A DNA stretch of 64,000 nucleotides, taken from NCBI RefSeq assembly GCF_000421765.1, contig NZ_ATXQ01000004.1:1-64000 (forward strand), in the 5' to 3' direction. Position 1 is the stretch's first letter. Each line of letters opens with the position of its first letter. This stretch comes from Denitrificimonas caeni DSM 24390 (lineage in GTDB: Bacteria; Pseudomonadota; Gammaproteobacteria; Pseudomonadales; Pseudomonadaceae). Below, piece by piece: positions 6,076 to 40,847 of this stretch. The notes beneath the pieces were generated by a model. It had not been told where the DNA came from. It was given only the letters and a program-made list of their open reading frames with translations, and ran no database searches. The translations under genes were made by a program, and so were the position numbers.

Positions 6076-6172
6076 AATAGTCAGCGTTGTGCTTTGACTC
6101 TGAAGTGAGCACAGTTGATGGGCTGCCAATGATTGACGCAGCATCTTTTGGCATGACACAGCTTCGGTCAGA

Positions 6173-8204: not shown

Positions 8205-8510
8205 GTGAAATTGAAAAAATTAATGTTATATGGTTTTTTAGCTTTAGTTCTTAGCGGTTGCACTTGGACGGCAGCAACTGAAATATCTCCAGGGCAATAT
8301 GCAATTACGAGCCATGGCAGTGTCGTTAATTCCCGAGAAGGGCTGTTGAAAAAAATAAATAGAAAAGCCGCCAAGGTCTGCAAAGGAAGCTCGTATCGAT
8401 TGGAGGGAGACCCTAATGCAAACATGTTAACCACAACACGAACTCAGTATGGGGACACACCTACGACTATTCTCGGTCTGACTGCAATTTGTGATAGCGA
8501 CCAAAAATAA
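8205..8510 (+). CDS. Small lipoprotein, 101 aa, unknown function
   Basis: A short basic N-terminus and hydrophobic core end in L-V-L-S-G-C, a type II signal peptide with the lipidated cysteine near residue 16. The mature part is small, with a short helix rich in lysine (LLKKINRKAAKVCKG) and two more cysteines. The GTG at 8205 is chosen because GGGA lies just upstream; TTG 8211 or ATG 8223 are alternatives. The upstream 130 bases are very AT-rich. The gene lies inside the segment bounded by 115-bp repeats, with the second lipoprotein gene downstream in the same direction. Confidence 0.72.
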   Translation: MKLKKLMLYGFLALVLSGCTWTAATEISPGQYAITSHGSVVNSREGLLKKINRKAAKVCKGSSYRLEGDPNANMLTTTRTQYGDTPTTILGLTAICDSDQK

Positions 8511-8574
8511 GTGAATGATGCACTCAAGAGAGTCAGCTAAGTGCTTCTATTTGGCTTGGTGCTAGGAGTCAGTG

Positions 8575-9225
8575 ATGAAAGCGTTTTTTGTACCTTTAAT
8601 AATTGCTTTGTCTTTGCTGGGCTGCACGAATGCGCCTGTAGCAAAAAATCAAAATCATTCTGTAGAACCCAAGTATGCGCAAGCATATAGATACGCTTAT
8701 ATGGCTTTGCAGGAAGGAAATTGGCCTGCATATCAAAAAATGATGCGTAAAGTTATCGATCTGTCGACCAGTGAGGGTGCTTCACCAGAACGCCGGGCAG
8801 TATTCTGGTATGAGTATGGCCGCGCTTCGGGAGTGGTTTGTGCATGGAATGATGCAGAGTTCGCGCTAACCGTGGCACGCAATCTTGATGCCAAAACAGG
8901 TGGGCCAGTACATCAGTCGCTCAGTGAGCTTGGACGAATGAATGTGGCTAGGAAAGAGTATATAAAAGCTGTCGATAACTTCACCTTAGCAATGGAAGCT
9001 TGGGCTGACTATCACAAGAAAAACTCTGAACATGAGCAGACCAGCGACTTGAGTAGAGCCGCAGTACTCGAAGATTTTGCCTATGCTCTTGAGCAGCTAG
9101 GCAGACAGCCCAGTGAGGTAGAAAAGCTTCGTAAAGAAGTGGCGGTGATTCGTAATGAAAATGCTGAGAAGGGCGATGTGCATGCAGACCAGACCCCTTA
9201 TGCAACCCAATGCTCAGTGCTTTAA
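8575..9225 (+). CDS. Lipoprotein with helical repeat (TPR-like) body, 216 aa
   Basis: The signal peptide ends in L-S-L-L-G-C, with lipidation near residue 17. The mature protein is almost entirely helical with TPR-like pairs: AYRYAYMALQEGNW, FWYEYGRASGVVCAW, ARKEYIKAVDNFTLA and FAYALEQLGR. No enzyme motif is visible; a scaffold role in the periplasm or outer membrane is an inference. The ATG at 8575 has AGGAG six bases upstream. Its stop codon lies inside a perfect 19-bp tandem duplication. Confidence 0.78.
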   Translation: MKAFFVPLIIALSLLGCTNAPVAKNQNHSVEPKYAQAYRYAYMALQEGNWPAYQKMMRKVIDLSTSEGASPERRAVFWYEYGRASGVVCAWNDAEFALTVARNLDAKTGGPVHQSLSELGRMNVARKEYIKAVDNFTLAMEAWADYHKKNSEHEQTSDLSRAAVLEDFAYALEQLGRQPSEVEKLRKEVAVIRNENAEKGDVHADQTPYATQCSVL

Positions 9226-9246
9226 TAAATGCTCAGTGCTTTAATA
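9209..9246. repeat. Perfect 19-bp tandem repeat (two units)
   Basis: The unit AATGCTCAGTGCTTTAATA occurs at 9209-9227 and 9228-9246 without a mismatch. The first unit carries the stop codon of the lipoprotein gene. It abuts the inverted-repeat element at 9248, so it may record a slippage or insertion event. Confidence 0.95.
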
Positions 9247-9247
9247 A

Positions 9248-9343
9248 CTGTAGGTCGCAGCTTTAGCTCGACATCAGCGCTGCAAATTACCAATACACGC
9301 ATAAAGCAGCAGGACTGTGTCGGCCTAAAGGCGCGACCTACAG
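9248..9343. mobile_element. Miniature inverted-repeat element (96 bp)
   Basis: The ends are perfect inverted repeats: CTGTAGGTCGC (9248-9258) and GCGACCTACAG (9333-9343). The pairing continues inward over about 28 bases (CTTTAG..CGACA) with about four mismatches. There is no coding capacity. This CTGTAGGTCGC...CGACA hairpin family recurs in pseudomonad intergenic DNA, and a related single hairpin is at 62513-62538 in this window. It probably moves with help from a transposase elsewhere. Confidence 0.7.
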
Positions 9344-9365
9344 CCGTACAAGCCGCTATTTGCAT

Positions 9366-9480
9366 CCTCGTTGTCTTCAAGGCTAATGCTATCGCTGATA
9401 AAAATCATGGCAGGTCTACGGCTAAAAGAATCAAGAGTGGCTGCTTATCATAAGCCATTACAAAACAGACTGTTAGCTTG
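9366..9480. repeat. 115-bp direct repeat, copy 2, with a truncated arfB start
   Basis: Near-identical copy of 7954-8068. On the minus strand it still encodes the first residues of ArfB (MIFISDSISLED, 9408 downward), then runs into the inverted-repeat element and stops, so it is a 5' remnant and not a gene. The upstream arfB region is kept, meaning promoter activity toward the minus strand may persist here. Confidence 0.9.
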
Positions 9481-9606
9481 GATAAACTGAGTTAGAGTAG
9501 GTTGTATAAAGGGTGAGTGCTGAGCGATAGATTTTACCATGCGCCACTTGAGCGCCGTTAAGGGCGTGCTTGCCGATTGCTAGCATAAGTAACCGAGGAC
9601 TGAACA

Positions 9607-10872
9607 ATGGGTGATCGTTTAAGGTTTTTCTTCAATCGCATCCGTGAGCGACTGTGGATCAAGCCGCTGGTGGTTTCAGTGCTATCTGCGGTCACGGTGT
9701 TTTTGATTAAGATGGTCGATACCGAAGCTCTTGGTGAGTTAGTCCCGACGGTTTCTGAGCAGTCGATCAAAACCTTGCTGACGATTATTACCGGCAGCAT
9801 GTTAATGATTGCCACTTTTGCTGTGGGCTCAATGGTTTCTGCCTATGCATCGGCGAGTAATAACGCCACGCCGCGCTCATTTTCTTTGATCATTGCCGAC
9901 GATGGCTCGCAGAATGCGCTCTCGACCTTCATTGGTACTTTCATTTATAGCGTTGTCGCGTTGATTGCCATGGAGAATGGCTATTACGGTGAAGCCGGGC
10001 GTTTTGCGCTATTTGTTTTAACCTTACTGGCGCTCACCATCGTCATCGTGACCTTTGTGCGCTGGGTTGACCGTATCGCTCGGCTGGGGCGTCTGAAAGG
10101 AACCATCGAGAAGGTTGAGGAGGCTGCGGCAGCGGCGATTCAGCGCAGACGCAGTGCGCCAACCCTTGGTGGTGTGCCAGCGCCACGACAGGCTGAGCCT
10201 GAAGGTCAAGCTGTGTATAGCGACGCCATTGGTTATGTGCAGCAGATCGATATTGCGGCTCTGCAGCGCTGTGCGGAAAAATTAAAGGTACACATCACTG
10301 TGACGGCGTTGCCTGGTGCGTTTTCAGCGCCTGGGCGTGCGCTGGCTTTTATCACCTCCGATGCGAATGATGTTGTCGCCGTTGACACTCAGTCGATCAG
10401 TGAAGCTTTTCTGATCGGTGATGATCGCAAGTTTGAAGAGGATCCGCGCTTTGGCCTTGTGGTTCTGTCAGAGATCGCAGGACGCGCTTTGTCTCCAGCG
10501 GTCAATGATCCAGGTACCGCGATCTATATTGTCGGTGTGTTTGTTCGGCTGTTTGCGCAGTGGTCTAAGCCTGTTGCAGACAGTGAGAGTGATAGCTGTG
10601 AATATGATCGTGTTGCGGTGCCAGAACTTTCTGTCCACGATATGTTTGATGATGCTTTCACTGCCATTGCCCGTGATGGTGCTGGCGCAGTAGAGGTCAC
10701 AGGGCGACTGCAAAAGGGTCTTGCATCGCTGGCAACTCTCGATGATGTCGCGATGCGTGATGCGGCACTGCGCCATTCGCGGATGGCGCTGGCCCGAGCA
10801 GAAAGCGTGCTGCGGTTGTCTGAAGACCTACAGACCGTTCGTAGTTTGGCCAGCTTCGCCAATGAGCGTTAA
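9607..10872 (+). CDS. DUF2254 membrane protein
   Basis: A 421-residue protein matching DUF2254. It has four predicted spans in the first 150 residues (about 20-38, 58-78, 100-118 and 128-148), with a conserved-looking loop SMVSAYASASNNATPRSFSLI between the second and third. A long soluble C-terminal half follows, containing EDPRFGLVVLSEIAGRALSPAVNDPGTA. Function unknown; the soluble part suggests a cytoplasmic sensing or enzymatic domain. The start has a GAGGA-like site (CCGAGGACTGAACA) just upstream. The gene follows the second copy of the 115-bp repeat and is transcribed alone. Confidence 0.88.
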   Translation: MGDRLRFFFNRIRERLWIKPLVVSVLSAVTVFLIKMVDTEALGELVPTVSEQSIKTLLTIITGSMLMIATFAVGSMVSAYASASNNATPRSFSLIIADDGSQNALSTFIGTFIYSVVALIAMENGYYGEAGRFALFVLTLLALTIVIVTFVRWVDRIARLGRLKGTIEKVEEAAAAAIQRRRSAPTLGGVPAPRQAEPEGQAVYSDAIGYVQQIDIAALQRCAEKLKVHITVTALPGAFSAPGRALAFITSDANDVVAVDTQSISEAFLIGDDRKFEEDPRFGLVVLSEIAGRALSPAVNDPGTAIYIVGVFVRLFAQWSKPVADSESDSCEYDRVAVPELSVHDMFDDAFTAIARDGAGAVEVTGRLQKGLASLATLDDVAMRDAALRHSRMALARAESVLRLSEDLQTVRSLASFANER

Positions 10873-11205
10873 GCAGCAATCTAGAAGGGTTTATCAGCAA
10901 GCTGTAACGCGCAACCGCTTTTAGCACGATTGTGGTGATTGATATTGATCAAGCGCTTTGCTTACGCACTCTGCAATCAACAGACCTTTGCTTGAGTTTT
11001 ATTGGTATCTGCAGTACTTCTATTCTTGAGTGCAGAATAAAACCTGCAGCAAGATGGCTATGCTGTAACAGCGTTTAGCACATCTGTGCAGGTCAGTATT
11101 TAGCATGGCTCGCAAGGCGTTTAGACCGGTTCTTCCGGTTGGCTGGTTTCAATGTTCGGTCGCTTCGCAGGCCATACCTTTCGCTCGAACAATGAGGATT
11201 TCAGC
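10873..11205 (+). other. 333-bp intergenic region with an Anr box and no gene
   Basis: No convincing coding frame is present on either strand. The notable element is the Anr/FNR box at 10939-10952, listed separately. The 250 bases between it and the next start codon are long enough for an untranslated leader or a small RNA, but no terminator-like hairpin closes it off. Confidence 0.6.
10939..10952 (+). promoter_or_regulatory. Anr/Dnr/FNR-type binding site
   Basis: TTGATATTGATCAA matches the TTGAT-N4-ATCAA consensus perfectly. If it is an activating site at -41.5, transcription would start near 10987; TGCAAT at 10972-10977 is a possible -10. The first gene downstream on this strand is the flavin reductase at 11206. 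Confidence 0.65.
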
Positions 11206-11928
11206 ATGCCTGTCTATAACGTTAAACTCATCCGTAAAGAAGACATCGCCGATGGCACCATGGCGTTTTATTTTGAGAAGCCTGAAGGCTTTAGCCATAA
11301 AGCAGGTCAGTACGCTGACCTTACTCTGATCGATCCGCAGCAAACCGACGCCGAAGGTAACGTGCGCACCTTTACCTTGGCCAATGCGCCCTATGAAGAT
11401 GCTTTGATGTTTGCCACCCGCATGCGTGATAGCGCTTTTAAACGGGAATTAAAAACAATGCCGATAGGGGCAGAGATCAGTCTCGATGCGCCGCATGGCA
11501 CGTTTACGCTGCACAATAAAACCGATGTTCCAGCGGTATTTCTCACTGGAGGTATTGGTTTGACACCTGCTCGAAGCATCATTTTACAAGCGGCGCACGA
11601 CAAACTTGCGCATAAGATTTATCTGTTTGATTCCAATAAAAGGCCAGAAGATGCAGTTTTTCTGGACGAGTTAATGGCAGCGCAACACGACAATCCCAAC
11701 TACACTTTTATTGGCACAATGACGCAGATGGAAAAATCTAAGTGCAGCTGGGATGGCGAAACCGGTTTAATCGACGAAACCATGCTGACGAAATATGTTG
11801 GCGACTTGAACGTACCGATTTACTACATCGTCGGGCCGCAAGGCATGGTGTACGCCATGGTTGAAATGCTCCTCACTGCTGGAGTGGATGATGACAATAT
11901 CCGCACCGAAGAGTTTTTTGGCTATTAA
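11206..11928 (+). CDS. FAD/NAD(P)-binding oxidoreductase (ferredoxin reductase family)
   Basis: A 240-residue two-domain flavoreductase. The N-terminal FAD-binding barrel has the R-T-F-T-L-A-N flavin motif. The NAD(P)-binding domain has G-G-I-G-L-T-P-A-R, a later VGPQGM strand and the C-terminal E-E-F-F-G-Y. There is no iron-sulfur or globin domain, so it needs a partner protein or reduces flavins, quinones or small oxidants directly. The start at 11206 has TGAGGA upstream. A perfect Anr box 254 bases upstream suggests induction under low oxygen. phhB follows 108 bases downstream but may be separate. Confidence 0.85.
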   Translation: MPVYNVKLIRKEDIADGTMAFYFEKPEGFSHKAGQYADLTLIDPQQTDAEGNVRTFTLANAPYEDALMFATRMRDSAFKRELKTMPIGAEISLDAPHGTFTLHNKTDVPAVFLTGGIGLTPARSIILQAAHDKLAHKIYLFDSNKRPEDAVFLDELMAAQHDNPNYTFIGTMTQMEKSKCSWDGETGLIDETMLTKYVGDLNVPIYYIVGPQGMVYAMVEMLLTAGVDDDNIRTEEFFGY

Positions 11929-12036
11929 GCTTGGGCGCGGCAGAGTAATCGTAAAGCGCCTAGAAAATAGAAGACTACGGGGATGAATACTGTATCCCCG
12001 TAAAGAATTGCAATGTTGCACTGATTAGAGGTGGAT

Positions 12037-12333
12037 ATGATCGAGAAACTGAGTCAACAAGCGTTAGATTCTGCACTGCAAGAATTGAATGAAACAGTCG
12101 ATAAAGCCTGGCAACTTAAAGAAGGCAAGTTGCATAAAGAGATTAAGTTCGCTGATTTTGTTGCGGCATTTGGTTTTATGAGCCAAGTCGCGCTGCTTGC
12201 GGAGAAAGCCGATCACCATCCTGAATGGTTCAATGTCTACAACAAAGTAGCCATCAGTCTGACCACGCATGATGCTGGCGGTATCTCAACGAGGGATTTT
12301 GCTTTGGCTGCAGCAATAGAAAAGCTAGGCTAA
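12037..12333 (+). CDS. phhB: Pterin-4a-carbinolamine dehydratase
   Basis: A 98-residue PCD/DCoH protein with the family pattern: L-x-x-F-x-F-A-F-M-like helix ([24 protein letters not shown]) followed by [20 protein letters not shown]. The histidines in A-D-H-H-P-E-W are the catalytic pair that dehydrates 4a-hydroxytetrahydropterin, recycling the pterin cofactor of phenylalanine hydroxylase. phhA is not adjacent. The ATG at 12037 is preferred over the in-frame GTG at 12031 because it is better placed behind AGAGG. Confidence 0.92.
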
Positions 12334-12460
12334 GCATAGGTTGGTTTTGTCTGTGACAGTAACGCAGAAGTAGGGCGCGTTTGCCGTGCAGAGTTGCACT
12401 CTTTGCGCTGACTCTGCTGCGCTCCATGCGCAGTGCTATTTAAATGCTGCAGAGTCTGCC

Positions 12461-13204
12461 TCAAATCTTCACGCAGGTGAAAAGAGCGTTGCCAGAAACG
12501 CTGTCCCAGGGAATGATTTTTTCATAGTCGTGCTCAAAGATATGGACTTCAAAGTAAGGCTGCAAGATGTCTATGAGCTCGGCAAAGCTCAAAGCGACCA
12601 TGGGGTGCTCGTCATGCCAAACCTGCGTGCCTGTGGCGTTGGCTTTTTCAATACTGACTTTTAACGACTGCTTTTCGCCATGGCCAGAGTAATGCCAGCC
12701 GGAATTAAAAGTGAAACGCTCGCCGGCATGATCCACAGTGTGTTTGGCAAATAAAGCGTTATCGATTTTGTTCTTATCCACGACGTTAAAACAGAAAACG
12801 CCATCTGCTTTTAACCCGCGATGAACGCTGGCTATACAGGCTTTGAGCTTTGCCAGATCGGCGTTGTAATGGATCGAGTACAAAAAGCAGGTGATTAAAT
12901 CGACGGGCTCAGCCATGCAGAAAGCGCTCATGTCTTGCAAAGAAAACTGCGCTTCAGGGCAGCGCGCTGCGGCAATATCGAGCATCGGCTGATTAATGTC
13001 TAAGCCACTGCTTTGGTAGCCTAAATCAATAAAGTAACGAACGTGCGGACCGGTGCCGCAGGCTAAATCAAGATGTGTTGTGCCGGCATTGCCGAAGATC
13101 TGCTGCAGTCGGTGCACCGCATGACTTTGCGCTTGGTAGTCGATACCTGCGCACATTAAATCGTAATAGCCTGAAAGGTCGGTATACAGTGCGTTGGCGG
13201 ACAT
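12461..13204 (-). CDS. Class I SAM-dependent methyltransferase
   Basis: A 247-residue methyltransferase with motif I L-D-L-A-C-G-T-G-P-H near residue 45, an acidic end of strand two (GLDI), and the D-x-I-T-C-F-L-Y-S-I motif of strand four. The second half is a beta-rich lobe with S-G-W-H-Y and H-D-E-H-P-M. The substrate is unknown; the layout resembles small-molecule methyltransferases. The ATG at 13204 fits the family N-terminus (MSANALYTDLSGYYD); an upstream frame to 13261 looks non-coding. It is divergent from ilvD with 260 bases between. Confidence 0.85.
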   Translation of the reverse strand: MSANALYTDLSGYYDLMCAGIDYQAQSHAVHRLQQIFGNAGTTHLDLACGTGPHVRYFIDLGYQSSGLDINQPMLDIAAARCPEAQFSLQDMSAFCMAEPVDLITCFLYSIHYNADLAKLKACIASVHRGLKADGVFCFNVVDKNKIDNALFAKHTVDHAGERFTFNSGWHYSGHGEKQSLKVSIEKANATGTQVWHDEHPMVALSFAELIDILQPYFEVHIFEHDYEKIIPWDSVSGNALFTCVKI

Positions 13205-13466
13205 GGGAGCCTGCAATTGAGCTGAAGTATTTTGGGTGGCGCATAGTAAGCTAATTGCCACACTTTGCGAAGCAGATCGGCGCGTAAGGCGCTATAACTG
13301 CTGTTTTATGGATGTTTATAGCAGCCCGCTGATAATTTCTGACCGATCGACCTAGGTTTTTAGGCATGGCCGCAGCGACTTAACGCAGAGAATCTGCATC
13401 CACCCAGTATGCTTGCGCTTTATTTGTGTCTATAGTTGACTGAATTACTATGTTATTGGAGGCGTT

Positions 13467-15149
13467 ATGATTAAAGAAGACGACACGGGCAGAAAGTACT
13501 CGGCTATTTTGGTCGATGGTATTCAAAAAGCCCCAGCCCGTTCGATGTTGCGCGCAGTTGGTTTTGATGACGCAGACTTTAAACGCCCGCAAGTCGGCAT
13601 CGCTTCCACTGGCAGCCAAGTCACGCCGTGCAATATGCACATCAACGGTTTGGCTGAAGAAGTTGCCAAAGGCGTATATTTGGCGGATGCAAAACCCATC
13701 GTCTTCAACACCATTACCATTTCTGATGGCATTGCCAATGGTTACCAAGGCATGAAGTATTCCTTGGTGTCGCGTGAGGTGATTGCTGATTCCATTGAAA
13801 CGGTTGCCGGCTGCCAAGGCCATGATGCGGTGATTGCCATTGGTGGCTGCGATAAAAATATGCCGGGCTGTTTAATCGCCATGGCACGCCTCAATCGTCC
13901 AGCGCTGTTTATTTATGGTGGCACCATTCAGCCGGGTAAAAATCACACTGATATTGTTTCGGTGTTTGAAGCAGTGGGTGCTCATGCACGTGGTGACTTA
14001 AGCGAAGCAGAAGTGATTGCCATTGAAAAAACGGCTATTCCAGGGCCTGGTTCTTGCGGCGGGATGTACACCGCTAACACTATGGCAACGGCGATTGAAG
14101 CCTTAGGTATGAGCTTGCCTGGCAGTTCTGCACAAGAAGCTATATCGCCAGAAAAGCGTGAAGATTGCCGGCTTGCTGGGCAGGCGATTCGTTGGTTATT
14201 GGATAATGATATAAAACCCAGCGATATCATGACCCGTAAAGCCTTTGAAAATGCCATTACTCTGGTGATTGCCTGCGGTGGATCGACCAATGCTGTTCTG
14301 CATTTATTAGCCATGGCCGATGCAGTCAATGTGGAGTTGAATATCGATGACTTCACCGAGATTGGTAAGCGTGTGCCCGTCTTAGCTGACTTGCGTCCAT
14401 CCGGTCGTTACCTGATGTCTGATCTGATTAAGATTGGCGGTATTGCACCACTGATGAAACGTCTATTGGATAAAGGCTTGCTGCACGGTGATTGTTTAAC
14501 AGTGAACGGCAAAACCATCGCCGAAAACCTTGCCGATGTGGTCGATTATCCAGACGGCCAAGACATTATTATGCCATTCGATACGCCGCTGAAAGCTGAC
14601 AGTCATTTACGCATCTTGCGCGGCAGTATTGCACCGGACGGTGCAGTGGCGAAAATCAGCGGTCAAGAAGGTACGAAGTTCAGCGGCACAGCGCGAGTGT
14701 TTGATTCAGAAGAAGCCTCCATGGCGGCCATCTTAGACGGCACTGTGGTGTCGGGCGATGTTATCGTGATTCGCTATGAAGGCCCGAAAGGCGGTCCAGG
14801 TATGCGCGAAATGCTTTCGCCAACTTCAGCCATTATGGGGCGCGGCTTGGGAAATGAAGTGGCGCTCATTACTGACGGACGTTTCTCTGGTGGCAGTCAT
14901 GGTTTTGTGGTGGGGCATATCACCCCAGAAGCCATGGTTGGCGGGCCGATTGCGATCATCGAAGACGGCGATATGATTACGATTGATGCCGAAAACAATG
15001 AAATAAATCTTGGCGTTTCGGCTGCGGAAATTGAACAGCGTTTGCGCGCATGGACTGCCCCCAAACCCAATGTGCAGCGCGGCGTGTTGGCGAAATACGC
15101 TAAAACTGTTGGCTCAGCATCTGAAGGTGCAATCACCGATAGGTTTTAA
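13467..15149 (+). CDS. ilvD: Dihydroxy-acid dehydratase
   Basis: A 560-residue IlvD/Edd enzyme of branched-chain amino acid synthesis, converting 2,3-dihydroxy-isovalerate or -methylvalerate to the 2-keto acids. Iron-sulfur ligands are seen in [10 protein letters not shown] (about residues 126-135) and [13 protein letters not shown], with the C-terminal motif [20 protein letters not shown]. Length and motifs are complete. GGAGG lies eight bases before the ATG. It is followed by a bidirectional terminator shared with the convergent carboxymuconolactone decarboxylase-like gene. Confidence 0.96.
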
Positions 15150-28799: not shown

Positions 28800-29045
28800 A
28801 AAACACCTCCAATATGTAGAGCGTTAGCTAAGACTCTAGCACAACGCTCGATTGCCAAAGGTTTGGGCGTCACGCGTAGATTTGGCCTAGCGTTTTATCC
28901 ATAGTTTCAATACTCAATAGCTGCTAAGTACCCGCACTTACTCTGTCTAGCCATCATCAATTTCTGTATTGAGCGGCGATTGGCTAAGGTCAATTGCCTA
29001 TGCTAGCTTGGTTACATATTCAGTAAATTGTTTAAGGAGTTCGAT

Positions 29046-29801
29046 ATGTTCTCACTGAAAGATCAGGTGGCGATTGTCACGGGCGGCGCCAACGGTATTG
29101 GTAAAGGCATTGCTACAGTGCTGGCAAAAGCAGGCGCGCAGGTGGTGATTGCGGATATTGATATTGAGGCGGGACAAAGTGCTGCACAAGAACTCGGCGC
29201 GACATTTGCTGCGTTAGACGTGACTGATAAAACAGCCTGTCAGCGCGTGGTTGATACCGTCCTTGAGCGTTACGGTCGTTTGGATATTCTTTGTTCCAAT
29301 ACTGGTATTTTCCCTCAAGCTGCTCTGGACGTGATGACCACGGAAAATTGGGATCAGATGATGGACGTTAACCTGCGCAGCACCTTCTTTATGGTGCAAG
29401 CGGTGTTACCGAGCATGCGCCAACGTGGTTATGGACGTATCGTGATTACCTCATCAATCACTGGAGCGATCACCGGCTATCCGGGCTGGGCTCATTATGC
29501 CGCCAGTAAAGCTGGACAACTGGGCTTTATGCGTTCTGCCGCTCTGGAGTGTGCACGTGAAGGTATTACCATTAACGCAGTGATGCCAGGCAATATCCGC
29601 ACGGCAGGTCTGGAGGCACAGGGTGAGGCTTATCTAAAAGAAATGGCCGACTCGATTCCGGTCAAAAAATTAGGAGAGCCTGAGGATATTGGTCATGCTG
29701 CTTGTTTTCTAGCCTCGCCAGAAGCGCGTTTTATTACTGGGCAAACTATTATTGTTGATGGTGGCCAAATTTTGCCGGAGTCTTTTGACGCAATCCTGTA
29801 A
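29046..29801 (+). CDS. Short-chain dehydrogenase/reductase (FabG-like)
   Basis: A 251-residue classical SDR: T-G-G-A-N-G-I-G (residues 12-19), cofactor acidic residue in V-I-A-D-I-D, and the active-site Ser with Y-A-A-S-K. The usual N-N-A-G is replaced by S-N-T-G. The Asp at the end of strand two favours NAD over NADP. The C-terminus (FITGQTIIVDGGQILPES) is standard. The substrate is unknown; relatives include 3-oxoacyl reductases and polyol dehydrogenases. AAGGAG precedes the ATG at 29046; an upstream frame from 29028 is unlikely. A second, related SDR lies 1.8 kb downstream. Confidence 0.9.
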   Translation: MFSLKDQVAIVTGGANGIGKGIATVLAKAGAQVVIADIDIEAGQSAAQELGATFAALDVTDKTACQRVVDTVLERYGRLDILCSNTGIFPQAALDVMTTENWDQMMDVNLRSTFFMVQAVLPSMRQRGYGRIVITSSITGAITGYPGWAHYAASKAGQLGFMRSAALECAREGITINAVMPGNIRTAGLEAQGEAYLKEMADSIPVKKLGEPEDIGHAACFLASPEARFITGQTIIVDGGQILPESFDAIL

Positions 29802-31585: not shown

Positions 31586-32359
31586 ATGAACTCGACCGAA
31601 TTATTTGATTTAAACGGCAAAGTAGCCATTGTCACTGGTGGTGCCAATGGAATTGGTGCTGCGAGTTGCCGCATGCTGGCAGAGCATGGTGCGACAGTGG
31701 TCATTGCTGATTTAAAACTGGCTGACGCACAAGCATTGGCTGATCAGATCACTGCGCAGGGCGGTAAGGCTTTAGCGGCTGGGTGCAATGTGCTCAAAGA
31801 TGATGATTTGGTCGCGTTAGTGAATCGCACCATGGCAGAATTTTCTGCTATTCATATTTTAGTTAACAATGCCGGCGGCGGTGGGGCGGGCAAAGAAAGT
31901 CCGTTTGAAATTACCCTTGAGCAGTTTGAGCGACCTTTCCAGATAAACGTATTCAGCGCTTGGCGTCTAGCGCAGTTATGCGCACCGCACATGCAAGAGG
32001 CGGGTTACGGCTCGATTATTAATATGTCGTCGATGAGTTCGCTGAACAAGAGCCCAGCAATCAGTGGCTATGCTGCCTCTAAAGCTGCGATCAATCATAT
32101 GACCGCTAACTTGGCGCATGACTATGGCCCAATTATTCGCATCAATGCGGTCGGTCCAGGTGCGGTTAGAACTGGCGCGTTGGCTACTGTACTCACGCCT
32201 GAAATTGAGCAGCGCATGCTTGCACATACACCGATTAAGCGCTTAGGTGAGCCGGAAGATATTGCTGGTGCGGTGCTCTACTTTGCGGCACCTGTGTCGC
32301 AATGGGTCAGTGGCCAAGTGTTGTTTGTTAATGGCGGCGGCGTGCAAACCTTGGATTGA
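31586..32359 (+). CDS. SDR-family dehydrogenase (7-alpha-hydroxysteroid dehydrogenase-like)
   Basis: A 257-residue classical SDR with T-G-G-A-N-G-I-G-A-A, V-I-A-D-L (NAD-type), N-N-A-G-G-G-G-A-G, the active Ser in NMSSMSS, and Y-A-A-S-K-A-A. The combination N-N-A-G-G-G-G with a long glycine loop resembles HdhA-type 7-alpha-hydroxysteroid dehydrogenases, but the true substrate is unknown. AAGGACAGG lies before the ATG at 31586; the 28-codon upstream extension is not supported. It shares the T-G-G-A-N-G-I-G start with the SDR at 29046 but differs elsewhere, so the two are paralogues rather than recent duplicates. Confidence 0.88.
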   Translation: MNSTELFDLNGKVAIVTGGANGIGAASCRMLAEHGATVVIADLKLADAQALADQITAQGGKALAAGCNVLKDDDLVALVNRTMAEFSAIHILVNNAGGGGAGKESPFEITLEQFERPFQINVFSAWRLAQLCAPHMQEAGYGSIINMSSMSSLNKSPAISGYAASKAAINHMTANLAHDYGPIIRINAVGPGAVRTGALATVLTPEIEQRMLAHTPIKRLGEPEDIAGAVLYFAAPVSQWVSGQVLFVNGGGVQTLD

Positions 32360-33467: not shown

Positions 33468-34772
33468 GTGAAGCCAGTTAAAGTAGGGATCTGTGGTTTA
33501 GGCACCGTTGGTGGTGGTACTTTTAACGTTCTCAAGCGTAATGCTGAAGAGATTTCACGGCGTGCCGGCCGTTCTATTGACGTGGTGCAAGTGGCCTCGC
33601 GTGCAGTCAATCCATTGTGCGATACCAGCACGACTGAGATGACTGAAGATGCTTTCGCTGTCGTTAATAATCCTGAAATTGATATCGTGGTTGAGCTGAT
33701 TGGTGGCGATACCTTAGCTAAAGAGCTGGTGTTGCGCGCGATTGCCAACGGCAAGCACGTGGTCACAGCCAATAAAGCTCTGATTGCCGTACACGGTAAT
33801 GAGATTTTTGCCCGTGCCCGTGAAAAAGGTGTGATGGTCGGTTTTGAAGCGGCGGTGGCCGGTGGTATTCCGGTGATTAAAGCCATTCGTGAAGGCTTAG
33901 CGGCCAACCGAATCAATTGGCTGGCCGGTATTATCAATGGTACCGGTAACTTCATTCTCAGCGAAATGCGCGAGAAAGGCCGCACTTTTGAAGACGTGCT
34001 GCAAGAAGCGCAAGCCTTGGGTTATGCCGAGGCAGATCCAACTTTCGATGTCGAAGGCATTGATGCTGCGCATAAGCTGACTATCTTGGCTTCGATTGCT
34101 TTTGGTATCCCATTGCAGTTCGAGAAAGCCTACACCGAAGGCATTACGCAGCTGACCACGGCTGACGTGAATTATGCTGAAGCCTTGGGTTATCGTATTA
34201 AACACCTCGGTGTGGCGCGTCGTACTGATTTAGGTATTGAGTTGCGCGTGCATCCAACTTTGATTCCCGCTGATCGCTTAATTGCCAACGTCAATGGCGT
34301 GATGAACGCAGTGATGGTTAATGGTGACGCTGTCGGCAGCACCCTGTATTACGGTGCTGGCGCTGGCATGGAGCCAACCGCTTCGTCGGTGATTGCTGAT
34401 ATTGTTGATGTGGCACGTGCCATGGCAGCAGCGACTGAAGATCAAGTCCCTGCGCTCGGCTTCCAATCGGATGAGTTGTCTGATCATCCTATTTTGGCGA
34501 TTGATCAGTGTGAAAGTGCTTACTACTTGCGCATTCAAGCTAAAGACCACCCGGGTGTTTTGGCACAGGTGGCGAGCATTCTCTCGGTGCGTGGCATCAA
34601 CATTGAATCCATTATGCAAAAAGAAGCTGAAGAGTCCGATGGCTCAGTACCCATGATTCTGTTGACCCACCGCGTGCAAGAGCAGCGCATCAATGATGCT
34701 ATTATTGCTCTAGAAGCCCTAGATTCTGTGCAAACGCCTGTTGTGCGAATCCGTGTTGAGCAGTTGGGTTAA
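33468..34772 (+). CDS. hom: Homoserine dehydrogenase
   Basis: A 434-residue monofunctional enzyme. NAD(P)-binding G-L-G-T-V-G-G-G lies at residues 9-16, then the substrate region V-T-A-N-K-A-L-I and G-I-I-N-G-T-G-N-F-I-L. A C-terminal ACT domain (about 350-430; KDHPGVLAQVASILSVRGINIESI) probably senses threonine. It reduces aspartate semialdehyde to homoserine. The start is GTG behind GGGGA; the ATG seven bases upstream is out of frame. dsbC precedes by 96 bases, thrC follows by 36. Confidence 0.96.
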   Translation: MKPVKVGICGLGTVGGGTFNVLKRNAEEISRRAGRSIDVVQVASRAVNPLCDTSTTEMTEDAFAVVNNPEIDIVVELIGGDTLAKELVLRAIANGKHVVTANKALIAVHGNEIFARAREKGVMVGFEAAVAGGIPVIKAIREGLAANRINWLAGIINGTGNFILSEMREKGRTFEDVLQEAQALGYAEADPTFDVEGIDAAHKLTILASIAFGIPLQFEKAYTEGITQLTTADVNYAEALGYRIKHLGVARRTDLGIELRVHPTLIPADRLIANVNGVMNAVMVNGDAVGSTLYYGAGAGMEPTASSVIADIVDVARAMAAATEDQVPALGFQSDELSDHPILAIDQCESAYYLRIQAKDHPGVLAQVASILSVRGINIESIMQKEAEESDGSVPMILLTHRVQEQRINDAIIALEALDSVQTPVVRIRVEQLG

Positions 34773-34808
34773 TTTCAAGTTAAGCGACTCTGATAAAGGT
34801 TGTTACTT

Positions 34809-36218
34809 ATGCGATATATAAGCACGCGCGGCAAAGCCCCTGCGCTGAATTTTGAAGATGTATTGTTGGCCGGTTTGGCCAGCGATGGCGGTTTGTATGT
34901 GCCAGAGAATTTGCCGCGTTTTACTGTAGAAGAAATTGCCTCTTGGGCTGATCTGCCGTATCACGAATTAGCTTTTCGGGTAATGCGTCCCTTCGTCGCG
35001 GGCTGCATTGATGATGCGGATTTTAAAGCGATTCTCAAAGACACCTATGGTGTGTTCGAGCACAGTGCGGTGGCGCCGTTGCGTCAACTTGATAGCAATG
35101 AGTGGGTGCTGGAGTTATTCCACGGGCCAACCTTAGCGTTTAAAGACTTTGCCCTGCAGTTGCTTGGCCGTTTGCTCGATCACTTTCTCACTAAGCGCAA
35201 TGAGCGAGTGGTGATTATGGGAGCGACCTCGGGTGATACCGGTTCTGCTGCGATTGAAGGCTGCCGCCGTTGCGAGAATGTTGATATCTTTATTTTGCAC
35301 CCGCACCAGCGTGTGTCAGAAGTACAGCGTCGTCAGATGACCAGTGCGCTGAGCGATAACATCCACAACATTGCTATTGAAGGTAACTTCGATGACTGCC
35401 AGGAAATGGTTAAAGCCAGCTTTGCTGACCAATCATTCCTGAAAGGCACCCGTTTGGTGGCGGTGAACTCGATCAACTGGGCGCGCATCATGGCGCAGAT
35501 CGTTTACTACTTCCACGCAGCGATTCAGCTCGGCGGTCCACAGCGCTCCATTGCCTTCTCAGTACCAACGGGTAACTTTGGCGATATTTTTGCCGGTTAC
35601 TTGGCGCGCAATATGGGTCTGCCGATCAATCAGTTGATTGTCGCTACTAACCGTAACGATATTTTGCACCGTTTTATGAGTGGCAACCGTTATAACAAAG
35701 ATGCGCTGCACCCAACCTTGTCGCCGTCAATGGACATTATGGTGTCGTCGAACTTTGAGCGTTTGCTGTTTGATATGCATGGTCGTGATGGCGCTAAAGT
35801 TACACAATTGATGGATCATTTCCGTGCCACTGGCGAGATGAGTGTCGAGGATGAGCGTTGGACCGAGACTCGCAAGTTGTTTGACTCATTAGCTGTGGAT
35901 GATGAGCAGACTTGTGCGACCATTGCCAAGGTTTATAAAGACACCGGCGAGCTGCTCGATCCGCACACAGCGATTGGCGTACACGCGGCGCGTGAGTGCC
36001 GTCGTAGCTTAGCCACACCTATGGTGACGCTTGGTACTGCGCATCCAGTTAAGTTCCCAGAGGCGGTGCAGAAGGCGGTGCCAAGTGCCAGTCCAGTGTT
36101 GCCAGCGCATATGGCTGACCTGTTTGAGCGTGAAGAGCGCTGTACGGTCTTAGGCAACGACTTAGCTGTTGTGCAGGACTTTGTCAGCAAGCATGGTAAT
36201 CGTGGTAAGCCTTTGTAA
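34809..36218 (+). CDS. thrC: Threonine synthase
   Basis: A 469-residue PLP enzyme making threonine from O-phosphohomoserine. It opens R-Y-I-S-T-R-G-K-A-P, has the PLP lysine in T-L-A-F-K-D-F-A-L-Q-L-L-G, and A-T-S-G-D-T-G-S-A-A for phosphate binding, as in the long-type bacterial threonine synthases. The ATG at 34809 has AAAGG nine bases before it; an in-frame TTG at 34800 is less likely. It ends with a terminator and forms an operon with hom. thrB is not adjacent, as in other pseudomonads. Confidence 0.95.
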   Translation: MRYISTRGKAPALNFEDVLLAGLASDGGLYVPENLPRFTVEEIASWADLPYHELAFRVMRPFVAGCIDDADFKAILKDTYGVFEHSAVAPLRQLDSNEWVLELFHGPTLAFKDFALQLLGRLLDHFLTKRNERVVIMGATSGDTGSAAIEGCRRCENVDIFILHPHQRVSEVQRRQMTSALSDNIHNIAIEGNFDDCQEMVKASFADQSFLKGTRLVAVNSINWARIMAQIVYYFHAAIQLGGPQRSIAFSVPTGNFGDIFAGYLARNMGLPINQLIVATNRNDILHRFMSGNRYNKDALHPTLSPSMDIMVSSNFERLLFDMHGRDGAKVTQLMDHFRATGEMSVEDERWTETRKLFDSLAVDDEQTCATIAKVYKDTGELLDPHTAIGVHAARECRRSLATPMVTLGTAHPVKFPEAVQKAVPSASPVLPAHMADLFEREERCTVLGNDLAVVQDFVSKHGNRGKPL

Positions 36219-36281: not shown

Positions 36282-37280
36282 TTATTGCGTTTGTTGTCGC
36301 CATTGACTGGGGGATAATCCGCTCCAGCGTTTAAAAGCGCGGGAAAATGCCGTTTCATCGGCATAGCCTAAACCTAGAGCCAGATCAGTCAGACTGATGA
36401 AGCTGTGGCTGAGTTGCAGTTGTGCTTCACTATAGCGCACTTCATCCAGCAGTTGACGAAAGCTGCTGCGGCGCTGTTGTAGCTCTGTTTGTAACTGCCT
36501 GGGATGAAGATTGAGTAGATTAGCGACCACGCTGAGCGTTGCTTCGCCGGTGGCTAAGACTGATTGAATAATCATTTTTGTGTGCGCCACGTAGTCTTCG
36601 CGAGCGTAACCTTGTTGCGAGGCGAATTGCTCAATCAGATGATTTTTGAGTTGCGAGCGTTGTTCGCTGGGCTGCAAGTGCAAGATCGCTGCGTCAGCAT
36701 AAAGCGCGGTCAGCGGCTGCGAAAACAGCACAGGCGCTTGGAAAAAATCCAAGTAAAACTGGCTGTTACTGGGCTCAGGGTAGGTGAAAGTGACTTTGCT
36801 CAGTTGCCATGCGCCTTTAAATAAAGCCTGCGCAGCACGATAAACCACGCCCATACCCAGTTCGACAAGCTGTTGTAAATCGACATTCTTGCTCAGTTGC
36901 AGACGGTATTCTAACGCCACTTGGTCACCGCATAGGTGCTGTTGTAATTGAATGCCCGGCGCGTGCAAATGGGCGTATTTATTGGTGATGCGCAGTAAGT
37001 CTTGAACGCTTTCTGCCTGTGATAAGAGCAGGCCAAAAGGGCCAAACACTAAATAGTCACGCTGCTGACTGAGTTCAATACCAAACTGTTGATTGCCTGA
37101 CTCATGGGCAGCAAGGCTTAGCACCTCAGCGACTCTTGCATAATCCACCCATAGATCGCTGCGTCGTAGCACCAGAGGATCAATGCCGCAGTGTTGTAAA
37201 AGCTGATGGGCATTGAGCTGGTTTTTCCGGCATAAGCGATCAAAGCCAATAAATACAGCACTGCGAGCGCGTTCAGACAT
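36282..37280 (-). CDS. AraC-family transcriptional regulator
   Basis: A 332-residue regulator. The N-terminal two-thirds is an Arabinose-bd type ligand domain (LNAHQLLQHCGIDPLVL...) and the last 100 residues carry two helix-turn-helix units (ATLSVVANLLNLHPRQLQTELQQ; DLALGLGYADETAFSRAFKRWSGLSPSQWR). It resembles OruR/ArgR-like AraC members of pseudomonads. It is divergent from an FAD dehydrogenase gene. The short intergenic region has two exact 15-base direct repeats, the likely binding site, so the regulator probably controls the dehydrogenase/TPP operon and perhaps itself. Confidence 0.9.
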   Translation of the reverse strand: MSERARSAVFIGFDRLCRKNQLNAHQLLQHCGIDPLVLRRSDLWVDYARVAEVLSLAAHESGNQQFGIELSQQRDYLVFGPFGLLLSQAESVQDLLRITNKYAHLHAPGIQLQQHLCGDQVALEYRLQLSKNVDLQQLVELGMGVVYRAAQALFKGAWQLSKVTFTYPEPSNSQFYLDFFQAPVLFSQPLTALYADAAILHLQPSEQRSQLKNHLIEQFASQQGYAREDYVAHTKMIIQSVLATGEATLSVVANLLNLHPRQLQTELQQRRSSFRQLLDEVRYSEAQLQLSHSFISLTDLALGLGYADETAFSRAFKRWSGLSPSQWRQQTQ

Positions 37281-37292
37281 GTGGTCTACCTA

Positions 37293-37329
37293 TTCGTAAT
37301 ATGTCAGATTTGTCTTCGTAATATGTCAG
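37293..37329 (+). promoter_or_regulatory. Tandem operator: two exact 15-bp direct repeats
   Basis: TTCGTAATATGTCAG occurs at 37293-37307 and again at 37315-37329, spaced 22 bases start to start (about two helical turns), in the gap between the AraC-type regulator and the FAD dehydrogenase. Tandem direct half-sites of this spacing are typical of AraC-family binding. A first half-site this close to the regulator's start codon could also repress it. Confidence 0.65.
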
Positions 37330-37391
37330 GTTTTCTCGGCTTTGTCTGCGCTAGTCTAGAGCTTGTAGATCATCATCACGAGCACAGTGTT

Positions 37392-38999
37392 ATGAGTGAC
37401 ATAGCTTATCAAGCAGAAACCTTAGTGATTGGCGCTGGACTGGCGGGCATTTGCACAGCTTTAGAATTGTTAAATAATGGCCGTGCGGTGCTGTTGCTGG
37501 ATGGTTGTGAACGGCAGCGCTTTGGCGGTCAAGCTAAAGAAGCCTTTGGTGGCATGTTGCTGAGTAATACCCCGGAGCAGCGTCGTAATGGTATTGCTGA
37601 CTCGGCTGAGTTGTTTTGGCGGGATTGGCAGCAAGCGGCGCAGTTTCAGCCTGATAGTCAGTGGGCGCAGCGCTGGGCTAAGGCTTATTGCGAGCGCAAT
37701 CGTAGTGAGATTTATGATTGGTTGCAGGGCTACGGCATTGGCTTTTTTCCGGTAGTGCAATGGCCAGAGCGCGGCAATTACAGCGATGGCAATAGCGTGC
37801 CGCGCTATCACGTCGCTTGGGGCTGTGGGCAGGGGATTGTGCAAAGTTTAGTACAGCAATTGTTAGGGCATCCACAGGCTAATCTTTTACGTTGTGTGTT
37901 TTCCCATACAGTCAGTGCTTTAGATTCGTGTGATGGTCGCGTGGTCGGCTGTCATGGGGTTCAGCCTGAAGGTGCGTTTTCGGTGCAGGCTGACAATACT
38001 GTGGTTTGCACCGGCGGTATCAATGGCAATTTAGATAAAGTGCGCGAGCATTGGGATCCAATCTACGGCGCTGCCCCCGACAATCTTCTCAGCGGAACAC
38101 ATCCCAGCGCTGATGGTGCATTGCATGACTGTGTAGAGGTTGTCGGTGGACAAGTCAGCAACCTGCATTATATGTGGAATTACGCAGCCGGCATTGCCCA
38201 TCCTCAGCCTGAATATCCACAGCACGGCCTCAGTTTAATACCGCCGCGCTCGGCATTGTGGATGGATTGTCATGGTCGACGTATTGGTCCGCAGCCAATG
38301 GTGACTGGCTTTGATACCCATGACCTGTGTAAAACCACCGGCCATCTGCCAGAGCAATACACCTGGCAAATTATGAATAAACGTATCGCTGATAAAGAGT
38401 TGGCGATTTCTGGCAGTGATAGCAATCCACACTTTCGTGATAGAAAACTACTCAAAGTGATCTGGCAAGCGCTGCGTGGCAATGCCGCGCAAACCCAGTG
38501 GCTACTCGATCATTGTCCTGATGTGGTGTGCGGCAATACGCTGGATGAGTTGGCGCTGCAAATGCAGCGGGTCGCACCCAATACAACACTGGATATCGCT
38601 GGTATGCACGCTGATATTGAGCGTTATGATGCCATGCTTAAAGGTCCGCGCGGGCTGCGCAATGATGATCAGATTCGTCGTATTGAGCAGTTACGTCAAT
38701 GGCGTGGTGATCGTGTGCGCACCTGCAAGCTACAACCCATTATTGATCGTAAACAGATGCCGCTGATTGCCATTCGTCTACGTTTAATCAGTCGCAAAAG
38801 CATGGGCGGCATGCTGACTGATCTAAGTTCGCGCGTGCTAGATTCTCAAGGATCGCCCGTTGTTGGCTTGTATGCTGCAGGTGAGGCGGCGGGATTTGGC
38901 GGTGCAGGTATTTCTGGGGTGCGCTCTTTGGAGGGTACTTTCTTGTCCAATTGCGTTTTTAATGGTCGGCGCGCGGCACAAAGCATTATCGCCGGTTAA
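37392..38999 (+). CDS. FAD-binding dehydrogenase (COG3573/KstD-like)
   Basis: A 535-residue flavoprotein of the fumarate reductase/ketosteroid dehydrogenase superfamily. It has the FAD motif V-I-G-A-G-L-A-G near residue 11, F-G-G-Q-A-K-E-A-F-G-G-M at the flavin face, and a C-terminal G-L-Y-A-A-G-E-A-A-G-F-G-G-A-G followed by GVRSLEGTFLSNCVFNGRRAAQS. This C-terminal pattern matches uncharacterised COG3573 oxidoreductases. Substrate unknown. The ATG at 37392 is used; there is no strong ribosome-binding site, and the open frame upstream crosses the operator. A TPP-dependent enzyme follows in the same direction. Confidence 0.85.
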   Translation: MSDIAYQAETLVIGAGLAGICTALELLNNGRAVLLLDGCERQRFGGQAKEAFGGMLLSNTPEQRRNGIADSAELFWRDWQQAAQFQPDSQWAQRWAKAYCERNRSEIYDWLQGYGIGFFPVVQWPERGNYSDGNSVPRYHVAWGCGQGIVQSLVQQLLGHPQANLLRCVFSHTVSALDSCDGRVVGCHGVQPEGAFSVQADNTVVCTGGINGNLDKVREHWDPIYGAAPDNLLSGTHPSADGALHDCVEVVGGQVSNLHYMWNYAAGIAHPQPEYPQHGLSLIPPRSALWMDCHGRRIGPQPMVTGFDTHDLCKTTGHLPEQYTWQIMNKRIADKELAISGSDSNPHFRDRKLLKVIWQALRGNAAQTQWLLDHCPDVVCGNTLDELALQMQRVAPNTTLDIAGMHADIERYDAMLKGPRGLRNDDQIRRIEQLRQWRGDRVRTCKLQPIIDRKQMPLIAIRLRLISRKSMGGMLTDLSSRVLDSQGSPVVGLYAAGEAAGFGGAGISGVRSLEGTFLSNCVFNGRRAAQSIIAG

Positions 39000-39050
39000 C
39001 CCTTTCACACTGACTCAATAACCTCGAATAAAAGAGCAGGAGATTAGATT

Positions 39051-40781
39051 ATGAAAAAAACAGGTGCATCACTGGCACGATTTGCCCTAGAACAATTGGG
39101 CGTGCGTTATACCTTTGGCATTCCCGGTGTGCATAACACTGAGTTGTACGACGAACTCAATAACTCGAATCAGATCACCCCTATATTGGTCACGCACGAG
39201 TGTGGCGGGGCTTTTATGGCTGATGCGATGAGTCGTACTGGCGATAGCATCGGTACTTTGCTGATTGTTCCTGCTGCAGGTGTCACCCATGCCTCAAGCG
39301 GAATTGGCGAGGCCTATTTAGCTGGCATCCCGATGTTGATTATTTCTGGCGGGATTCATACTGAGAATGGCCGTCGTTTTCAGTTGCATGACATGGATCA
39401 GCACACGTTGCTGTCGCCCATCACTAAGGGCAGCTTTCATATTAAATCCCATGCTGAGGTGATCCCGACGCTGTATGCCGCGTATCAGTTGGCGATGCGA
39501 GGCGAGCCGGGGCCTGTGTTTATTGAGTTGCCTTACAATATTGGTAATTTTTTGGGTGACGTCGAGGATATGCCCGCGTTTACTGGATTGGAGCCGCAAG
39601 CCACCTTTGATCGCTCTTTAGTCAAACAAGCTGCGCAGTTGTTGGTTAAAGCTAAGCAAGTGGGGCTTTTTCTTGGTTGGGGTGCTGTTGATTGTCAGGT
39701 CGATCTGATTGAGTTGGCGCAGTTGCTCAATGCACCGGTTGCTACAACCCTGCAAGGCTTAAGTTCTTTCTCAGGTAATCATCCACTGCATACGGGGATG
39801 GGCTTTGGTGGCTATTCAGTGCCAGCAGGACAGAATGCTTTTGCCCAGTGTGATGCGGTGTTGGCGATTGGTACTCGTTTTGCAGAGATTCCTACCGGCA
39901 GCTTCAGTATGCAGGTGCCGGAAGACTTGGTGCATATTGATATCAATCCCGATGTGTTTAACGCCAACTACCCAGCTAAAATCGCGGTACAGGGTGATGC
40001 GCGCGCGATTATTCCGGCGCTATTAAGCGAGGTGCGTGCGCTGCAAACACAAGCGAAAGAAGGTGCGATGGCGCAGCAGATTCAGCAAGATAAAGCGGCC
40101 TATACGAAGCAGTGGCTGGCGCACAATAGTGGGGGGCGGGTCAATCCAGCTCGATTTTTTCAGGCACTACGTAAACAGTTAAGTGATGACACCATTATTG
40201 TTGCTGATGATGGTAATCACACCTATTTAGTCGCAGAGTTAATGCCTATTTTAGGGGCTAGACGTTACCTTTCACCGACTGATTTTAATGCTATGGGTTA
40301 CTGCGTGCCGGCAGTGATCGGAGCAAAATTGGCCAATCCGCAAACACCAGTGATTGGGGTTGTGGGTGATGGGGCATTATTGATGACTGGTATGGAAATG
40401 CTCACCGCTGTGCGTAACCAGCTTGGTGTGGTGGTGTTTATTTTTAATGATGGCGAACTGTCACAAATTGCCCAAGCTCAAGAAATCCCTTACAACCGCA
40501 AAACCTGCACGGTGCTGCATGGCATTAATATGCAGTCATTAGCGGTCACGGTTGGAGCAGAGTTTGTGTCAATTCAAAGCGAAGCTGATATTGAGGCAGG
40601 TATTCGTAAAGCTTTGCAGTTTGCGGCAAACAATCAGCCGGTTTATGTTGACGTTAATATCGACTACTCAAAGCGCACACGTTTTACCGAGGGGATCGTG
40701 AAAGCCACGCTGAAGCGCTTTGCGCCGCGGGACAAGTTTCGTGTGATCAGTCGCGCCTTGGTGCGTAAGATTACGCGCTAG
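39051..40781 (+). CDS. Thiamine-diphosphate-dependent enzyme (acetolactate synthase-like)
   Basis: A 576-residue three-domain TPP enzyme. The pyrimidine domain has the activating Glu in V-T-H-E-C-G-G-A-F-M (near 51), and the middle domain is FAD-site-like (LGWGAVDCQVDL). The PP domain has G-D-G-A-L-L-M and, 26 residues on, N-D-G-E-L, the Mg-TPP motif. It looks like the acetolactate synthase / pyruvate oxidase / benzaldehyde lyase group but is not IlvB: no small-subunit gene lies nearby. AGGAG precedes the ATG. It follows the FAD dehydrogenase in a probable AraC-controlled operon. The reaction is unassigned. Confidence 0.85.
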   Translation: MKKTGASLARFALEQLGVRYTFGIPGVHNTELYDELNNSNQITPILVTHECGGAFMADAMSRTGDSIGTLLIVPAAGVTHASSGIGEAYLAGIPMLIISGGIHTENGRRFQLHDMDQHTLLSPITKGSFHIKSHAEVIPTLYAAYQLAMRGEPGPVFIELPYNIGNFLGDVEDMPAFTGLEPQATFDRSLVKQAAQLLVKAKQVGLFLGWGAVDCQVDLIELAQLLNAPVATTLQGLSSFSGNHPLHTGMGFGGYSVPAGQNAFAQCDAVLAIGTRFAEIPTGSFSMQVPEDLVHIDINPDVFNANYPAKIAVQGDARAIIPALLSEVRALQTQAKEGAMAQQIQQDKAAYTKQWLAHNSGGRVNPARFFQALRKQLSDDTIIVADDGNHTYLVAELMPILGARRYLSPTDFNAMGYCVPAVIGAKLANPQTPVIGVVGDGALLMTGMEMLTAVRNQLGVVVFIFNDGELSQIAQAQEIPYNRKTCTVLHGINMQSLAVTVGAEFVSIQSEADIEAGIRKALQFAANNQPVYVDVNIDYSKRTRFTEGIVKATLKRFAPRDKFRVISRALVRKITR

Positions 40782-40802
40782 CTAAGTAAAACTCGAGATA
40801 AT

Positions 40803-40828
40803 AAAAAACCGGCCTAAGCCGGTTTTTT
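40803..40828. terminator. Bidirectional terminator between the TPP gene and rpsT
   Basis: AAAAAACCGGC (40803-40813) and GCCGGTTTTTT (40818-40828) form a perfect 11-bp stem with a CTAA loop. It can end transcription of both the TPP-enzyme gene and the opposite-strand rpsT. Confidence 0.92.
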
Positions 40829-40847
40829 ATTAAACATGCTGTCGCAA

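Follow-up and report, generated by a model that had tools for sequence, protein, structure and literature searches.

In the mandelate pathway, as we understand it, the flavin mononucleotide (FMN) 2-hydroxyacid dehydrogenase MdlB and the thiamine diphosphate (ThDP) benzoylformate decarboxylase MdlC convert a hydroxy acid to a 2-oxo acid and then to an aldehyde. We take this pathway as a working analogy for the locus described here, which lies in a 64,000-nucleotide stretch of Denitrificimonas caeni DSM 24390 (contig NZ_ATXQ01000004.1, positions 1 to 64,000; the window). The locus consists of a gene for a flavin adenine dinucleotide (FAD) dehydrogenase, a gene for a ThDP enzyme and a divergent gene for an AraC-family regulator. 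Each part has described relatives of its own. The ThDP enzyme has the three-domain architecture and catalytic Glu position of the acetohydroxyacid synthase (AHAS) large subunit; the soluble fumarate and urocanate reductases Fcc3, Osm1 and UrdA are the best solved-structure profile matches of the FAD enzyme; and the regulator is alike in domain architecture to QhpR and the PF12625 AraC-type regulators. An FMN enzyme resembling the MdlB step occurs in the operons of four relatives, whereas the constant partner here is an FAD enzyme of the COG3573 (PRK12834) family, for which we know of no assigned reaction. The locus is an orphan catabolic operon: its enzymes belong to known superfamilies, and no description of their combination was found in the open PMC literature, outside which most subscription papers lie. 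Weak as this evidence is, it agrees with a first-pass annotation of the window, according to which no known pathway combines exactly these two enzymes.

The reading that we favour, at somewhat less than even chances, is an inducible catabolic operon of two steps, under a local activator of its own: the FAD enzyme would oxidise a substrate of the 2-hydroxy acid class, and the ThDP enzyme would then cleave a carbon-carbon bond. COG3573 is a widespread flavoenzyme family, and the operon gives a handle on its reaction. The ThDP enzyme would by default be annotated as an acetolactate synthase despite falling short of the AHAS models. With a conserved operon, a readable operator and few candidate substrates, both enzymes are open to testing, which would correct annotations in many genomes. 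The features of the unit are:

36282 to 37280, minus strand: AraC/XylS-family regulator gene, 332 amino acids (aa), with an Arabinose_bd N-terminal domain and HTH_18
37293 to 37333, plus strand: candidate AraC operator, direct repeats TTCGTAATATGTCAGATTT and TTCGTAATATGTCAGGTTT, 22 bp start to start, from a repeat search
37392 to 38999, plus strand: FAD_binding_2 dehydrogenase gene, COG3573/PRK12834 type, 535 aa, from profiles and the alignment of relatives
39038 to 39042, plus strand: Shine-Dalgarno-like AGGAG 8 nt before the ThDP ATG, within the 51 bp that separate the enzyme genes, read off the sequence
39051 to 40781, plus strand: gene for a ThDP-dependent acetolactate-synthase-like enzyme, 576 aa, probable decarboxylase or lyase, from profiles (below AHAS cut-offs)
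40800 to 40831, no strand assigned: terminator-like palindrome AATAAAAAACCGGC-CTAA-GCCGGTTTTTTATT, which separates the ThDP gene from the convergent rpsT, found by eye

Conservation of the FAD-ThDP gene pair

Homologues were sought in 341 genomes of the host's order. At E values up to 1e-100, the FAD enzyme was found in 37 genomes, at 38 places; three places at 38 to 39% identity (G077, G234 and G349; G numbers denote genomes) were set aside as a distant group. One of the 35 close places lies at a contig end (G341), leaving 34 testable. A ThDP enzyme was encoded next or next but one downstream of the FAD gene in 31 of these 34. It was of the window's type, directly downstream and on the same strand, at 16 of the 35 close places, and of a different, PRK07586 type directly downstream at 12; at three more (G059, G126 and G270) a PRK07586-type gene followed after one LldD-like gene. 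The PRK07586 assignment comes from two scored proteins, which reached 794.9 and 797.5 bits where 363 are needed. The remaining three close places (G062, G358 and G362) had no ThDP gene. Outside the order, G933, of the same class, has the pair, and the FAD gene of G724 stands at a contig end. The comparison of conserved neighbours that had been proposed in the first-pass annotation thus found the pairing kept. Since the pair is conserved in other genomes, chance pairing is excluded; and since two different ThDP families occupy the same place, the combination is what is kept.

This link is confined to part of the COG3573 family. The close group (at least 43% identity) is mostly ThDP-linked, whereas in the distant group (37 to 42% identity; other classes and G077) profiles of the two ThDP families found neither of them at any of 27 loci, over about 1.5 kb downstream in all and less upstream in three. 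Distances between FAD enzymes mirrored those between their ThDP partners (20 pairs, r = 0.92, a value reached in none of 5000 permutations), which is not proof of interaction because shared species descent also contributes. In the host's genus the FAD gene is present in only 3 of 12 genomes, and both enzymes have ratios of nonsynonymous to synonymous substitution (dN/dS) of 0.05 to 0.08, against 0.02 to 0.05 for four housekeeping neighbours. A 92% identical FAD gene was found in a Gammaproteobacteria metagenome-assembled genome.

In the plasmid collection PLSDB, FAD homologues occurred in 38 records, the 20 listed being 36 to 40% identical, and ThDP matches in 21, the 10 listed being 29 to 30% identical. 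Two of the plasmid FAD regions (H5 and H6) had no annotated ThDP neighbour in the PLSDB gene table, which is incomplete. Two other settings were seen by eye. At three loci of family f41 (L093, L094 and L101; L numbers denote mapped loci), ThDP homologues of 49 to 56% identity stand right after a run of genes resembling those for Rnf electron transport, with no FAD gene. ThDP-less FAD copies of two families (L098 in G362 and L163 in G724, the latter cut by the contig end) adjoin a glyceraldehyde-3-phosphate-dehydrogenase-like gene, perhaps a third context for the FAD gene.

Family and active site of each enzyme

The first-pass annotation had called the oxidoreductase a COG3573-type FAD dehydrogenase, and rightly so: it matched NF009472/PRK12834 over residues 6 to 532 with 485.5 bits, above the curated cut-off of 476, and is a full-length member. 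It fell below the cut-offs of the 3-ketosteroid dehydrogenase and flavocytochrome c models. Its score for the 3-ketosteroid delta-1-dehydrogenase equivalog was 61.8 bits against 789, outside that group, and its profile match to solved KstDs spans only about 50 residues. Two arginines of the family, Arg468 and Arg511, were invariant in 32 of 32 aligned sequences and would fit an acidic substrate. A passage of the Osm1 paper gives R477 and H435 as the fumarate-binding residues of that enzyme (PMC6242907). Neither is kept in the FAD enzyme, where H435 aligns with Arg468 and R477 with Ser512; hence its site is not of the carboxylate-binding type of fumarate and urocanate reductases.

The description of the second enzyme as acetolactate-synthase-like also held. 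It carries all three TPP_enzyme Pfam domains and the GDG motif, and its catalytic Glu50 and its Asp440 were invariant in 30 of 30 aligned sequences. It is not a member of the AHAS equivalog: acolac_lg, its best NCBIfam match, scored 314.9 bits where 538.35 are required, it reached the cut-off of no AHAS model among its best 25 of 57 matches, and it is 29 to 30% identical to annotated AHAS. Nor was the benzoylformate decarboxylase model among those 25; a PRK07586-type enzyme scored 191.5 bits on that model, against a cut-off of 493. A benzaldehyde-lyase-like His, considered for this enzyme, found no support and was not used.

Regulator and candidate operator

The divergent gene encodes an AraC/XylS-family protein, with PF12625 (105.2 bits) and PF12833 (HTH_18; 62.5 bits) both above cut-off. 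Its best NCBIfam match, the QhpR model NF049968, gave 173.2 bits, under the cut-off of 250. Homologues 53 to 56% identical to it adjoin the homologous operon in G015, G026 and G027.

The stretch that separates araC from the FAD gene contains two 19-nt direct repeats with 95% agreement and a spacing of 22 bp. Their 15-nt core has two matches in the whole window at up to 2 mismatches, both at these repeats, where 0.14 are expected; 2 of 100 shuffles reached two. Whole-genome searches of nine genomes with the paired-site pattern, at up to 3 mismatches, returned one site each in G000, G015, G026 and G027, four genera, in every case at the operon locus. G005, G007, G008, G009 and G261 had none, and a reversed control pattern had no match in any of the nine. 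The pattern was designed after these sites had been viewed, and their recovery was expected; the weight of the search lies in the lack of a second site in the four genomes and in the position of all four sites at the operon. No further regulon site was found genome-wide in the nine genomes beyond the local one in four. Because the paired repeat occurs once per genome and always at the operon, the regulator looks dedicated to it, judging by sequence. Upstream of the PRK07586-type operon of G261, where the AraC protein is 29% identical, a weaker repeat was noted by eye.

AraC control of the unit, which the first-pass annotation had put forward, gains from an operator footprint common to relatives, but the regulator is not an essential part. 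G005 and G008, of the host's own genus, have both enzymes, which are under purifying selection there, and no AraC match. Their stretches between thrC and the FAD gene align with opposite ends of araC: that of G005 with the 3' end (36287 to 36426; score 35) and that of G008 with the 5' end (37212 to 37274; score 36). Among 500 shuffles the maxima were 30 and 25, respectively, and 61 other stretches of the window reached no more than 26 and 25. Both genomes apparently keep traces of a lost araC, the margin in G005 being modest. There seem to have been two separate losses (L075 in G005; L076/L009 in G008), with the operator decayed in both.

Among the 40 FAD-bearing stretches that were mapped, the window included, 15 have an adjacent divergent AraC gene, a relative of the one in the window or of the one in L096. 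Six have a LuxR-type gene in its position (L082 and L106, called by Pfam; L083, L108, L109 and L160, called by similarity). One (L114) has a divergent AraC gene four genes off, and the remaining 18 have neither regulator there. We conclude that the regulator is swapped or lost while both enzymes stay.

Neighbouring genes and the proposed pathway

An LldD-like FMN 2-hydroxyacid dehydrogenase gene was found in 4 of 51 stretches searched (50 and the window), always contiguous with the unit and with either ThDP family. In G026 the order is AraC-FAD-ThDP-LldD, with a 12-bp gap before the LldD-like gene. In G059, G126 and G270 the LldD-like gene lies between the FAD and ThDP genes, and in G126 its open reading frame (ORF) overlaps the ThDP ORF by 4 bp. 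The proteins scored, from G026, G126 and G270, are above the cut-off of the L-lactate dehydrogenase subfamily model but below that of the LldD exception model (428 to 451 against 550); lactate is one possible acid among others. A facing aldehyde dehydrogenase gene stands in ten stretches of family f28, beside the pair, the ThDP-only form (four stretches) or the FAD-only form. PRK07586-type loci add a GMC oxidoreductase gene in three cases (L095, L114 and L157) and, singly, genes for a flavin-containing monooxygenase, a hydrolase, a short-chain dehydrogenase/reductase (SDR) and a PF10118 protein.

Because LldD-like and aldehyde dehydrogenase neighbours recur in relatives, we favour with moderate confidence a route that leads from a 2-hydroxy acid through a 2-oxo acid to an aldehyde, and prefer it to steroid or cyclohexane-type chemistry. 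Of the substrates suggested in the first-pass annotation (diols, 2-hydroxy acids and cyclohexane-type compounds), the neighbours thus appear to point to 2-hydroxy and 2-oxo acids and away from the cyclohexane type. In the pathway as we picture it, AraC would bind the 22-bp direct repeat upstream of the FAD gene when substrate or product is present and would then switch on both enzymes. The FAD enzyme, presumably acting before the ThDP enzyme, would abstract a hydride from a small acid and so form a 2-oxo acid; the likeliest substrate is a 2-hydroxy acid. Cleavage of the bond beside the carbonyl thus formed would fall to the ThDP enzyme, most likely as a decarboxylation to an aldehyde, which an aldehyde dehydrogenase would remove. 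At most loci, including the host's, the operon would offer no candidate for the first step other than the FAD enzyme. A broader extension strikes us as unlikely: that the close COG3573 enzymes of the host's order are new 2-hydroxy acid dehydrogenases which, with two separate lineages of ThDP decarboxylase, form an alpha-oxidation module under dedicated AraC or LuxR control, a module that would remove one carbon from 2-hydroxy acids, possibly fatty ones, and yield an aldehyde. Should the 2-hydroxy acid reading hold, the operon would establish an alpha-oxidation route in bacteria.

Several observations weigh against the pathway as drawn. The superfamily of the FAD enzyme is better known for carbon-carbon desaturation or reduction than for oxidation of hydroxy acids. 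AlphaFold models for the window and one relative had mean predicted local distance difference test (pLDDT) values of 29.8 and 32.6, too low to permit inspection of an active site. The host genome holds no full-length FMN 2-hydroxyacid dehydrogenase (FMN_dh) and does not class as mandelate-type, and the full-length FMN enzymes of G015, G027 and G177 lie away from the operon, so that the LldD clue comes from four relatives only. The two enzymes are also separable. Close ThDP homologues occupy 32 places in 31 genomes, 16 with the FAD gene upstream and 16 without; in 15 of the latter the flanks were checked and held no FAD homologue, the genome search gave no FAD match in the last (G348), and the wider surroundings were mapped for 10. 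One locus type of family f28 carries, between the same neighbours, either the pair (L081 and L085 to L087) or the ThDP gene alone (L102 to L104); a second type carries the pair (L084), ThDP alone (L105) or FAD alone (L107). In G261 (L091), the ThDP gene stands alone between flanks that enclose the pair in G177 (L080). These same loci are what one would expect if the two enzymes shared an inducer without acting in sequence, as interchangeable parts of a broader catabolic programme for which the operon is the package. We hold this to be fairly unlikely in view of the ThDP enzyme's retention at 31 of 34 testable FAD loci and of the two ThDP families found in the same position. Separability fits our favoured two-step pathway if the 2-oxo acid also arises elsewhere. 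Oxidation followed by cleavage or condensation, as first suggested, stands as the likely logic, with the LldD-like and aldehyde dehydrogenase neighbours behind it, but not as a function of two inseparable enzymes.

Other chemistries for the same two enzymes can be drawn from their superfamilies. The FAD enzyme might oxidise or desaturate a ring of the cyclohexane type, and the ThDP enzyme might open the 1,2-dione, like cyclohexane-1,2-dione hydrolase. FAD_binding_2 proteins include ketone dehydrogenases, with a weak NCBIfam match to 4-oxocyclohexanecarboxylate 2-dehydrogenase (32.4 bits), and that hydrolase appears among the solved-structure matches of the ThDP enzyme (110 to 111 bits, a sequence match only). 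However, E. coli AHAS I (219.6 bits) and BbmA (211.7 bits) score about twice as high, an LldD-like neighbour is a poor fit, and in the mapped loci, where most neighbours lack a profile annotation, no genes for ring degradation were recognised next to the unit; we consider such a cyclic-ketone or diol route rather improbable. AHAS I being the best solved match, and acolac_lg the best NCBIfam one, the ThDP enzyme might instead condense two 2-oxo acids in acetolactate-synthase fashion, with no cleavage. Beyond its sub-cut-off acolac_lg score, several features make this still harder to credit: the gene lies between the FAD gene and rpsT, with no AHAS small-subunit gene beside it; the host's one other TPP_enzyme_N protein scores higher (152.5 against 89.4 bits) and can act as AHAS; and Asp467 replaces, in 30 of 30 sequences, the second Asn of the AHAS motif, a position that we take to belong to the metal site. 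It seems very improbable that the FAD enzyme carries out a steroid-type 1,2-desaturation and that the ThDP enzyme acts later, in the breakdown of the side chain. This reading would draw on the superfamily match to 3-ketosteroid dehydrogenases and on a 7-alpha-hydroxysteroid-dehydrogenase-like SDR 5 kb off, but this SDR is below its own cut-off (302.7 bits against 367) and did not travel with the unit in the loci mapped in other families.

That SDR gene (31589 to 32359) is one of two related ones in the window, the other being at 29028 to 29801; both are some 5 kb or more away from the unit, to which they do not belong in other families. At L114 (G157, 5028 to 14530), the stretch beside the AraC gene holds genes for an SDR, a 361-aa protein with no Pfam match, a hydrolase, a DUF2505 protein, the FAD enzyme, the PRK07586-type ThDP enzyme and a GMC oxidoreductase.

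Gene starts and boundaries of the unit

The overall order is hom and thrC (33468 to 36218), araC (minus strand), the FAD gene (plus), the ThDP gene (plus), rpsT (minus) and murJ-ribF-ileS; hom, thrC, rpsT, murJ, ribF and ileS are names that we assigned by eye to presumed housekeeping genes. A GTG at 37281 was rejected as the FAD start (572 aa) and the ATG at 37392 adopted (535 aa), because relatives align from there and the longer ORF would span the operator repeat. The earlier coordinates and the picture of an operon opposite AraC stand, apart from the FAD start.

No terminator was listed by the scan within the 51-bp FAD-ThDP gap, and the promoter scan gave 4 sites against 6.2 in shuffles. 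We regard the two genes as an operon-like unit that is probably cotranscribed. At its end, before rpsT, a perfect palindrome with a T-run (about 40800 to 40831), absent from the terminator scanner's list, was seen by eye.

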